64,000 nt of DNA from Solirubrobacterales bacterium (GTDB lineage Bacteria; Actinomycetota; Thermoleophilia; Solirubrobacterales; 70-9): assembly GCA_035573435.1 (NCBI GenBank), contig DATMZR010000037.1:1-64000 (forward strand). Reading direction: 5' to 3'. A program made the position numbers and the translations under genes. How positions within the stretch are numbered: position 1 is the first letter of the stretch; each line of letters begins with the position of its first letter. A model generated the notes under the pieces. The model was not told where the DNA came from and did not search any database. It saw only the letters and a program-made list of their open reading frames with translations. Shown here in pieces: positions 14,062 to 46,495 of this stretch.

Positions 14062-14197
14062 GGGCTAGCGACGAAGTCGCGGTAGCTACCTGTAGACCTG
14101 CCGGGTAAGGTCGGCGCCCTAGCCCGGCGGCAAAGTAGCCGAAGGCGAGGCTGCCGCCGGAATATTCAGGCCGAGGCTTTCGGCGGATTGATTCCGT
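14062..14197. repeat. Structured intergenic repeat, copy 1
   Basis: The core 14062-14125 is 64 nt. Closing stem GGGCTAG/CTAGCCC is perfect (7 bp). Inside are arm CGAC-GAA-GTCG (14069-14079), the ten-base palindrome GGTAGCTACC (14081-14090) and GACC..GGTC (14095-14112). It is followed by a GC-rich hairpin with nine-base arms CCGGCGGCA (14124-14132) and TGCCGCCGG (14152-14160). The element fills the space between the lysS stop and the clpC leader. Related copies are at 34908, 37807 and 46368. Its right edge is approximate. Confidence 0.75.
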
Positions 14198-34907: not shown

Positions 34908-35045
34908 GGGCTAGCGATGAAATCGCGGTAATGACGTGTAGGCCTGCCGGGTCAGGTCCGAGCCCTCACCCGCCGCATCCGGCTTCGCCGGATGACCGGT
35001 CGCCTCCGGCTCCCTGGTAGGCGAAGCCGAGGCCTCCGGCGGAGT
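34908..35045. repeat. Structured intergenic repeat, copy 2
   Basis: Core 34908-34971, 64 nt, same order as copy 1. The first inner arm reads CGAT-GAA-ATCG where other copies have CGAC-GAA-GTCG: both bases of one pair changed. The last arm GGCCTG/CAGGTC has one G-T pair. The following hairpin has outer arms CCGCCG/CGGCGG (34970-34975 and 35037-35042) and an inner perfect hairpin ATCCGGC/GCCGGAT. It lies between convergent genes (unknown protein and sirtuin) and ends at the sirtuin stop codon. Confidence 0.75.
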
Positions 35046-35048
35046 GAT

Positions 35049-37806: not shown

Positions 37807-38000
37807 GGGCCAGCGACGAAGTCGCGGTAGCTGCGTGTGGACCTGCCGGGTGAGGTTGGCGCCCTAACCCGCCGCCCCCGGACGCGAAGCGGAGGAGGTG
37901 GCGGTTATACGAAGTCGCGGTAGCTGCGTGTGGACCTGCCGGGTCAGGTTGGCGCCCTAACCCGCCGCCCCCGGACGCGAAGCGGAGGAGGCGGCGGGTG
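37807..38000. repeat. Structured intergenic repeat, copy 3, with a truncated tandem duplicate
   Basis: The first core spans 37807-37870 (64 nt). A second, lacking its left end, starts around 37910; shared bases are offset by exactly 93 nt, pointing to a tandem duplication of the whole element with one end lost. The closing stem is weaker here (GGGCCAG/CTAACCC). The hairpin part is short (CCGCC/GGCGG arms). It lies between the dehydrogenase and the RTX-repeat gene, both on the minus strand. Confidence 0.75.
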
Positions 38001-38008
38001 ATGGATGC

Positions 38009-39043
38009 CTACGGGATTCCGAACACGGTCTCGCAGTTGAGCGCGGTGTCGGTGCCCTCGTCCCCGTGGCATTCGTCGGTGTCCGGGCCGCCGTTGACAG
38101 AATCGTCCCCATCGCCGCCGAACAGCAGGTCGTCCCCGCTGCCGCCCTGAAGGGCGTCCTCGCCGTAGTCGGCTCGGAGGATGTCGGCGCCCGCAGCGCC
38201 GTTGACCACGTTGTCCCCGCTGCCCGCGTTTATCACGTTGGCCGCGGCACTGCCGGTTAGGTGATCGCCGTTGTAGGTGCCGACTAGGTTCTCCAGCGAG
38301 GTGGCGAGATTGTCGCCTTCGCACTGCTGCGGGCAGTTGACGCCGTCGTTCGCGGTGCCGTCGAGCGAAGCTGTTACTGCGCTCCCGTAATAGCGGTAGC
38401 TCGCCGTATCGATGTCGGCTCCACCGCGATAGACGTCGGGCGTCGAGTCCTGGTCGGGAAACACCGTGTCCTTTCCGTCGCCGCCATCGACGACGTCGGT
38501 GCCCGTGCCTCCCACGAGCTCGTCGTCATCGCCTGCGTCTCCGAAGATCTGGTCGGCACCGTCCTGGCCGTAGATCTCGTCGTTGCCCCCCTGAGCCTGA
38601 CCCGGAGTGTCCCCGTGAAGGACGTCGTTCCCGTCGAGGCCGTCGACGTAGTCGTTCCCTCCGTCGCCCTGCACCCTGTCGTTGCCTTCCTCGCCATAGA
38701 GGCTGTCCGACTGCTTGCCCCCGGACAGCTTGTCGCTCCCGAGTCCGCCGCCGACCACGTCGAGTCCGATGCCGCCCTTGGCGCGATCCTTGCCAGGACC
38801 TGCGCAGATCCGGTCCGGACCTCCCTTGCCGTTGACCGTGTCGTTGCCACGACCGGTGTAGATCACGTCTGGCCCGTTGGTGCCGGTGATCCTGTCGGCG
38901 TGAGTGGTGCCCTTGATCGTGGGCTTCTTGCCAAAGCATGCTGCCTGCGCCGACGTGGCGCCAACCAGACCCACGGCAGCCAGCGCCATGCCCAGGACCA
39001 GCGCCATTCCTCTCCGGGTCCGCGGGTACGTGCTTGATTGCAT
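38009..39043 (-). CDS. Secreted RTX (hemolysin-type calcium-binding repeat) protein
   Basis: 344 residues from ATG at 39043, preceded by AGGAGGG at seven bases. A signal peptide (RRGMALVLGMALAAVGLVGATSAQA) is followed by a Cys-containing start and roughly a dozen nine-residue GGxGxDxUx repeats in two blocks (about residues 60-190 and 255-320; e.g. GGNDEIYGQDGADQIFGD, GGSGDDLLFGGDGDD). Such repeats bind calcium in a parallel beta-roll. No enzymatic or lipase domain is attached, so it is likely a surface or matrix protein, not a toxin. Confidence 0.88.
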   Translation of the reverse strand: MQSSTYPRTRRGMALVLGMALAAVGLVGATSAQAACFGKKPTIKGTTHADRITGTNGPDVIYTGRGNDTVNGKGGPDRICAGPGKDRAKGGIGLDVVGGGLGSDKLSGGKQSDSLYGEEGNDRVQGDGGNDYVDGLDGNDVLHGDTPGQAQGGNDEIYGQDGADQIFGDAGDDDELVGGTGTDVVDGGDGKDTVFPDQDSTPDVYRGGADIDTASYRYYGSAVTASLDGTANDGVNCPQQCEGDNLATSLENLVGTYNGDHLTGSAAANVINAGSGDNVVNGAAGADILRADYGEDALQGGSGDDLLFGGDGDDSVNGGPDTDECHGDEGTDTALNCETVFGIP

Positions 39044-45299: not shown

Positions 45300-45367
45300 C
45301 GACCGGAAAGGAGCCTATGTGGTCCAGTGGTCGGCGAAATCCCCGACGGCGAGGCCAAAGCGGCCAC

Positions 45368-45373
45368 TAGACT
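45368..45373 (+). promoter_or_regulatory. -10-like TAGACT box of the aldo/keto reductase
   Basis: TAGACT 7 nt before the GTG start at 45381; consistent with a leaderless mRNA. Confidence 0.45.
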
Positions 45374-45380
45374 CCGCCGC

Positions 45381-46391
45381 GTGAGGACGCGCCGCTTCGG
45401 CGACACCGACCTCGAGGCATCGGAGATCGGCTTCGGCACCTGGGCCCTCGGCTCGACCTGGTGGGGCGAGGTGAGCGAGGAGTCGGGCGAGCGCCTGTTG
45501 CTCGAGGCGCTCGACCTGGGAGTCACCTTCTTCGAGACCGGCGATGCGTATGGGCAGGGCGCCAACGAGGAGCTCGTCGGCAGGGTTCTCCGCCCGCATC
45601 GCGACCGGATCCAGCTCTCGTCCAAGTTTGGATACGTGCTCGACTCCAATCGCAGAGAGCACTCCGAGGGCGAGCGGCCACAGCGCTGGGACGGACCCTT
45701 CGTCCGCCAAGCCCTGGAGGCGAGTCTCACGCGGCTGGGCACCGACCATCTCGACCTCTACCAGCTCCACAACCCCCGTCTCGAGGCGATCGATTCGGAC
45801 GAGTGCTTCGCGACCCTCGACGAGCTGCGGGCCGAGGGCAAGATCGCCCAGTACGGCGTCGCGCTCGGCCCCGCGATCGGCTGGCGCGACGAGGGCCTGC
45901 GAGCGATCTCCAGTCGCCGAATCGCCTCCGTGCAGACTGTCTACAACCTGCTCGAGCAGGACCCCGGGCGGGACTTCCTCGAGGCCGCCGTCGACCACGA
46001 CGTCGGCGTGATCGCGCGGGTCCCGACCTCGTCGGGACTGCTTGACGACAACCTGACCTTGGAGACCACCTTCGGTCCCGGCGACCACCGCCGCCACCGG
46101 CCGCGTGAGTGGCTTGTCGAAGGCCTCGAGAAGATCGAGCGGATTCGCTTTCTCTGCGGCCCGGAGACGGGGCGCACCATGGCCCAGGCCGCGCTCCGGT
46201 TCATCCTCGCCCAGCCTCAGATGACGGTGGTGATCCCGACCATCACCAACCGGGCCGAGCTACAGGAGTACACCGCCGCGACGGACGTGCCTGAGCTGAC
46301 CGACGAGGAGCTCAGCCGCGTTGACGAGCTGTACCGCCACAACTTTGGGGTAGACGCTAGACGGCCTGGGCTAGCGACGCAGTCGCGGTAG
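45381..46391 (+). CDS. Aldo/keto reductase
   Basis: NADPH-dependent reduction of aldehydes or ketones, 336 residues from GTG at 45381. The catalytic tetrad is present: Asp and Tyr in DAYGQG (residues about 54-59), Lys in LSSKFG, His in YQLHNP. The open frame reads far upstream, but that part is antisense to the two exchangers. The last eight codons (LATQSR and stop) lie inside the structured repeat (46368 onwards), so the C-terminus is repeat-derived. Confidence 0.92.
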   Translation: MRTRRFGDTDLEASEIGFGTWALGSTWWGEVSEESGERLLLEALDLGVTFFETGDAYGQGANEELVGRVLRPHRDRIQLSSKFGYVLDSNRREHSEGERPQRWDGPFVRQALEASLTRLGTDHLDLYQLHNPRLEAIDSDECFATLDELRAEGKIAQYGVALGPAIGWRDEGLRAISSRRIASVQTVYNLLEQDPGRDFLEAAVDHDVGVIARVPTSSGLLDDNLTLETTFGPGDHRRHRPREWLVEGLEKIERIRFLCGPETGRTMAQAALRFILAQPQMTVVIPTITNRAELQEYTAATDVPELTDEELSRVDELYRHNFGVDARRPGLATQSR

Positions 46392-46492
46392 CTACGTGCG
46401 GACCTGCCGGGTCAGGTCGGGGCCTTAGCCCGCCGGAAACGTAGGCCGAAGGCCGAGGCTTCCGGCGGATTGATTCCGGAGGAGGCGGCGGT
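46368..46492. repeat. Structured intergenic repeat, copy 4
   Basis: Core 46368-46431, 64 nt: closing stem GGGCTA/TAGCCC, arm CGAC-GCA-GTCG, GACCTG/CAGGTC. The following hairpin has arms CCGCCGGAA (46430-46438) and TTCCGGCGG (46460-46468), a different sequence from copy 1 but the same pairing. It begins inside the aldo/keto reductase coding end and closes at the lipoprotein stop, between convergent genes. Confidence 0.78.
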
Positions 46493-46495
46493 TTA

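Follow-up and report, generated by a model that had tools for sequence, protein, structure and literature searches.

The repeat that begins at position 46368 of the window (the whole 64,000-nucleotide stretch of Solirubrobacterales DNA that was analysed) raises the question of what kind of element it is. The preliminary description had seen a family of structured intergenic repeats and left open a REP-like or MITE-like mobile element, a non-coding RNA and a transcription-end structure. We find that the repeat is one member of a family of short palindromic DNA elements uncatalogued until now.

Copies in the window

We call the genome that holds the window G000 (2.58 Mb in 43 contigs) and that of its sister species in the same genus, the groundwater MAG nzgw112 (84% complete), G001. 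All genomes used are assemblies of uncultured organisms, some counts vary with the mismatch limits, and gene calls come from a simple purpose-made codon model. The four full copies and one truncated copy listed in the preliminary description were all recovered (Table 1), with the motifs of the core in the order it gave. Its statement that the core is exactly 64 nt is true of the window copies; copies elsewhere differ from it by small indels or in their middle. Each copy does lie just past a minus-strand stop, the tails adjoining the stop codons of LysS, Sir2, an RTX-repeat protein and, for the copy at 46368, an unnamed protein. The neighbour of the tandem copies, on the minus strand at 38009-39007, is the RTX calcium-binding repeat protein. 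The palindromic module nested in the tail of the third copy (CATCCGGCTTCGCCGGATGACCGGTCGCCTTCGGCTCCCTGG, 34975-35016, plus strand) is found eight times in the G000 loci examined and twice in those of G001, and also has matches in G000 without a head.

Table 1. Coordinates of the element and its parts in the window.
Feature	Position	Strand	Evidence or remark
Head and middle (64-nt core), named copy	46368..46431	+	blastn and covariance-model matches across genome; three hairpins
Named copy, head hairpin GCGAC/GTCGC	46374-46378/46382-46386
Named copy, hairpin GGTAG/CTGCC	46387-46391/46404-46408
Named copy, hairpin GGGT/GCCC	46409-46412/46428-46431
Tail hairpin CCGCCGGAA..TTCCGGCGG, GAA loop, and A/T-rich end TTGATT	46430..46475	+	covariation over 34 tails; family-wide module
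Second-tail remnant (CCGGAGGAGGCGGCGGTTTA) up to minus-strand stop codon 46496-46498	46476..46495	+	sequence; matches other copies' tail ends
TAG inside head, stop codon of upstream aldo/keto reductase gene 45327-46391	46389..46391	+	gene call; Pfam PF00248
Second full copy, core (14062-14125) and tail	14062..14163	+	partial extra tail to ~14195; minus-strand LysS stop 14213
Third full copy (core 34908-34971)	34908..35048	+	nested palindromic module ~34975-35016; minus-strand Sir2 stop 35049; G001 site empty
Fourth full copy (core 37807-37870)	37807..37905	+	orthologous G001 site: element of another subtype
5'-truncated tandem copy, without GGGCTAGCG	37909..37998	+	minus-strand gene stop 38009

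Distribution

A blastn search of G000 with the 68-nt core returned 42 matches, the best with an E value of 1.4e-25 and identity reaching 96% over the full length. The preliminary description had proposed a covariance-model search, taking dozens of hits with significant covariation as support; a model built from 28 copies gave 47 hits in G000, 54 in G001, three in G002 and none in G003, and the covariation is significant. This model (R1) spans two subtypes and misses other middles, and its copy numbers are therefore lower bounds for other genera. There are thus about 50 copies per genome in two species of one uncultured genus (about 45 in G000 and 54 in G001).

The head pattern, with one mismatch allowed, was found across 50 family genomes 42 times in G000, 53 in G001, four in G002, once in G006 and three times in G007, with none in the rest, while the scan for the tail hairpin gave 36 matches in G001, 15 in G000, 13 in G017, 10 in G015, eight in G006, seven in G007 and four in G004. 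From these counts we conclude that the tail is family-wide and that the full head hardly occurs outside one genus. Reversed-pattern controls for both scans gave zero in every genome. In a sample of the class, eight of 399 genomes had tail matches, all within the same family, and an exact-pattern scan of 84,980 GTDB species matched a single genome, the MAG 'bacterium isolate nzgw112', in a collection that may lack the records of the window itself. The viral contigs, phages and plasmids that we searched had no match. Rfam returned nothing above the gathering score in the window or in five other loci (a weak match to 'hya', E 0.47, is at chance level), which agrees with the earlier remark that no named repeat has this form, and a literature search for palindromic repeats in Thermoleophilia found none.

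Structure and covariation

The element is approximately 100-145 bp long, with a head, GGGCTAGCGACGAAGTCGCGG, and a tail hairpin, CCCGCCG..CGGCGG. Copies set in register give the consensus GC[CT][CT]GGGCTAGCGACGAAGTCGCGGTAG, a variable middle with a CCTGCCG block, CCCGCCG, the tail hairpin and an A/T-rich end (GGAGTTATT, GGATTGATT). The middle has at least three subtypes, CGTGTGGACCTGCCGGGTCAGG and CGGAGGTGCCTGCCGGGTCAGG in G000 and CCTGCCGCCC types, which are common in G001. RNAalifold predicts the adjacent hairpins GCGAC/GTCGC, GGTAG/CTGCC and GGGT/GCCC. Compensatory changes occur in the first of these, the head arm (C-G to G-C and C-G to T-A), in which 100% of cells are paired. The closing stem GGGCTAG/CTAGCCC, which the preliminary description had placed around the core, has no compensatory change at all and is broken in 16% of cells, and we have discarded it. 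The GC-rich hairpin said to follow the core is present, not as a separate structure but as part of the same element and its best-covarying part. The supported structure is therefore a chain of hairpins: the head GCGAC/GTCGC, a variable middle and a strongly covarying tail hairpin.

Among 34 distinct tail hairpins, 95.8% of cells pair and double changes are found at seven of 12 pairs; the double-change cells number 56, against 21.6 +/- 3.4 in shuffles, and the covariation score is 0.350, against 0.103 +/- 0.015 in shuffles; sliding the partner brings it down to 0.066 or less. The tail of other genera has a CGGA/GAG loop (two facing 5'-GA-3') and a C-GAA-G tip, and the stem letters change in pairs. 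Quasi-palindrome correction during replication is another source of paired changes. Since it mimics them, and since the copies share history, the covariation indicates that the hairpin has been kept and does not indicate for what purpose. Two tandem arrangements were also seen: three head units about 70 nt apart in G001 (L165, G001:C58, positions 880, 949 and 1019), with CCAAAGGAAC in the spacer, and, in another genus, a tail-unit array with a period of about 60 nt (L254, ~841-1012; G006:C1:527460-527658).

Empty and filled sites in the sister species

The two flanks of 38 G000 copies were sought in 1.4 Mb of G001 and found at about 20 sites, of which about 19 could be scored; L018 and L026, with long unlike gaps, were left unscored. 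Nine sites are empty in G001 (L001-1503, L002, L006, L007, L021, L022, which is window 34908, L024, L035 and L040), and 10 are filled in both species (L001+893, L010, L012, L027, L028, L034, L036, L041, L042 and, by direct alignment, window 37807). With nine of about 19 scorable sites empty, copies have been gained or lost, and where a site is empty, G001 may have lost a copy instead of G000 having gained one. The G001 element is inverted at L012 and L028, and L034 is complex, giving two or three shared sites with opposite orientation. Sites filled in both species often differ in subtype, which either repeated insertion at a hot spot or gene conversion would explain. The clearest case is a ComF-like gene, the product of which ends in TFARS in G001 and in TFARSGLATKSR in G000; a PgeF-like gene (L035) has gained the tail ASDEVAVRASEPAAPLAPEPAGNGGQAEASGGFIP in G000 (both genes were assigned by eye).

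Position at gene ends

The copies are placed in a biased manner: of 68 tails whose right-hand neighbour is clear, 53 point at the stop codon of a gene running the opposite way and 15 at a gene start (p = 4e-6). The distance from the tail to the opposing stop is often 2-15 nt, and the pattern is also found in several genera. Both neighbouring genes oppose the element in 29 cases, are convergent in 24, run along the element in 13 and are divergent in two, and divergent promoter regions are avoided by the copies (2 of ~70). The stop codon of the left gene is often inside the head, where GGGCTAG is read as G and a stop or GGG CTA GCG ACG AAG TCG CGG TAG as GLATKSR and a stop; the aldo/keto reductase next to the named copy ends in RPGLATQSR, supplied by that copy. 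The bias may express a target preference, or the copies may be the survivors of selection. Because the distances are small, we favour at least some target preference, although compact intergenic gaps would give the same distances. Annotators should be aware that repeat DNA accounts for some of the linkers and C-terminal tails encoded in these genomes.

Copies within proteins

The element had been described as intergenic; it does lie between genes, but it is also found in frame inside protein genes. In eight copies with coding scores in both flanks, an open frame continues across the element, each time in sense orientation and in the same frame (GCT AGC GAC GAA GTC, ASDEV, or GCT AGG GAC GAA GTC CCG, ARDEVP), to give the peptide pattern [AG][SR]DEV[AP]..EPA..EPADTGREAEDV. 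In G001, the opposite-strand frame is open in at least as many copies (47 versus 45 of 56). The flanks score as host-like coding sequence (positive), and the insert scores mostly negative. The host proteins are HisF, NuoG, FbiC, Lhr (two copies), a UvrD-like helicase with PDDEXK, Der and an E2 acyltransferase, in which the copy sits between two lipoyl domains. A copy is also present in the N-terminal extension of the G000 ribosomal S17 protein (L039), and an ABC ATPase of G002 (named by eye) carries a degenerate in-frame copy. A NuoJ-like gene of G001 (by eye; L172:17954-18367, minus strand) closes with a copy translated in antisense, and both strands of the element are thus translatable.

HisF has 36-38 extra residues between VVIAIDAKR and WDVYVNGGR, which are absent in G000, G003, G004, G006 and G013. 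NuoG and FbiC have corresponding extra segments compared with their relatives, at positions that are variable in all genera. AlphaFold models HisF (six sequences) with a mean pLDDT of 74.8; strands 125-133 and 172-176 of the model flank the insert (approximately residues 134-171), which is a coil with pLDDT 34-41, and most of the rest is above 70. The HisF of G007, from another genus, has an unrelated insert of about 20 residues in the same loop (L195).

Nature of the element

The family is very probably a multi-hairpin palindromic DNA repeat, non-autonomous and mobile (or mobile until recently), that spreads within the genomes of one bacterial family. The REP- or MITE-like mobile option of the preliminary description is in this respect supported by the dozens of copies, the sites that are polymorphic between sister species and the lack of an Rfam match. 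We suggest that the copied unit would be DNA with its plus strand folded and that an enzyme acting in trans would recognise the hairpins. The plus strand, which is antisense to the gene whose stop the tail abuts, is probably the folded one, because the GAA loops (closed by C-G) and the facing G.A mismatches lie there, an argument that we consider weak. An inserted copy would persist where it does little harm, with the tail against an opposing stop codon or between convergent genes. At C-termini, it supplies a new stop codon (GGGCTAG, or the GLATKSR reading), and sense insertions inside genes fall at variable loops or linkers, where the one fixed open frame adds a hydrophilic peptide of about 35 residues.

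We found no transposase associated with the element: the sole Y1_Tnp (PF01797) match of G000 is on a copy-free contig stretch, and G001 has none. We have therefore rejected a RAYT as the mover, there being no copies near the only G000 match and no such match in the G001 draft despite its ~54 copies. The contig with the G000 match (L065, G000:C9) is unlike the rest in sequence and may be a contaminant. On balance, we lean towards the view that this bacterial family, itself far from the Rickettsiales, has a gene-invading palindromic element of its own, independent of RPEs and RAYTs, that is moved by a putative factor recognising hairpins in single-stranded form, with their GAA loops and facing G.A mismatches, and that has added segments of about 35 residues to core enzymes. 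The system would allow the movement of such elements without a RAYT to be studied, and the empty and filled sister sites, together with the pairs of proteins with and without the segment (HisF, NuoG and FbiC), offer a route to study how proteins tolerate new segments.

We have considered whether the element instead has a function at the 3' ends of genes, such that its reverse complement, a hairpin just past the stop, terminates transcription or shields the 3' end of the mRNA, and selection keeps the copies. The short distance between the tail and the opposing stop in many copies and several genera, the avoidance of divergent promoter regions and the 24 copies between convergent genes would all be expected of such an element. 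However, G001 lacks the element at about half of the sites that could be scored, and at two or three of the shared ones it has the copy in the opposite orientation. Other copies lie inside open frames, and the gene's strand has no U-tract following the hairpin. Nor is either RNA strand favoured: G.T and A.C mismatches in the tail, counted on the plus strand, are equally rare (five each), which therefore gives no indication of selection on an RNA strand (again a weak argument). The fold of the named copy is unremarkable and, being that of one copy, uninformative, hardly beating shuffles (z -0.8 as plus-strand RNA and -2.1 as minus-strand RNA). We regard the 3'-end function as unlikely; the empty sister sites, the inversions, the translated copies and the missing U-tract leave the non-coding RNA and transcription-end options of the preliminary description unsupported.

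The size, the copy number and the scattered empty sites would suit a MITE that has inverted ends and a target duplication and is mobilised by a DDE transposase, but the two ends differ (GGGCTAGCG versus GGCGGAGTTATT), no terminal inverted repeat or target-site duplication is clear at the empty/filled junctions that were read, and we saw no larger element bounded by them; we judge this to be less probable still. The encoded peptide is of the linker type, and it might be argued that the Ala/Pro/Glu-rich linkers of a high-GC genome have converged on low-complexity coding that is palindromic by chance. This is scarcely credible, as most copies are non-coding, nucleotide identity reaches 96% across unrelated places, the hairpins covary and the reversed-pattern controls are zero.

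Comparison with known systems

Palindromic DNA that invades protein genes in frame is known chiefly from Rickettsia and Wolbachia, and the window family would be a second, apparently unrelated case. Like the palindromic elements of Rickettsia (RPE-1 to RPE-3 and others) and Wolbachia, it consists of palindromes of 100-150 bp that are both intergenic and in frame inside unrelated protein genes, where they encode a common peptide, the functional hallmark of RPEs (the comparison is by function and not with RPE sequence). In those systems, the conserved encoded peptide lies at surface-type positions (PMC10969869, PMC3767692), and a review describes RPEs as unusual in the frequency of in-frame fusion, similar events elsewhere being possible (PMC10969869). 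The window family differs in its modules, in the strong bias of its tail to opposing stop codons and in its host, an uncultured high-GC bacterial family beyond which the class sample holds no match.

REPs with GTAG and CGTC tags are found in several phyla, and some are intragenic (PMC3733652). The CGTC-tagged group, which includes RPE-4, RPE-6 and dRS3, has known intragenic copies and no dedicated transposase (PMC3733652); set against that definition, our consensus lacks the unpaired CGTC at its end, the single stem of 8-9 bp with a 4-5 nt loop and the CCA tail. GTAG-tagged REPs are palindromic and lie mostly downstream of genes, between convergent or co-directional genes (PMC3733652). As in GTAG REPs and REPtrons, GGTAG follows the head hairpin in two subtypes of the window family; in contrast to them, the tag varies among subtypes (GGTGC, GGTTC, GGATC and GGGTC), GGTAG is internal, the element consists of several hairpins in a chain and a RAYT is absent. 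All copies of a GTAG REP would carry an unpaired GTAG at one end of the hairpin, which those of the window family do not, and no RAYT flanked by the repeat was found. The BIMEs of Escherichia coli are mosaics of REP units, modular palindromes at gene 3' ends. The window family is likewise mosaic and modular, with different modules and with coding insertions. The best reading is that it works like the RPEs of Rickettsia and like REPs, without a GTAG or CGTC tag and without a RAYT partner, a likeness that would be one of function.
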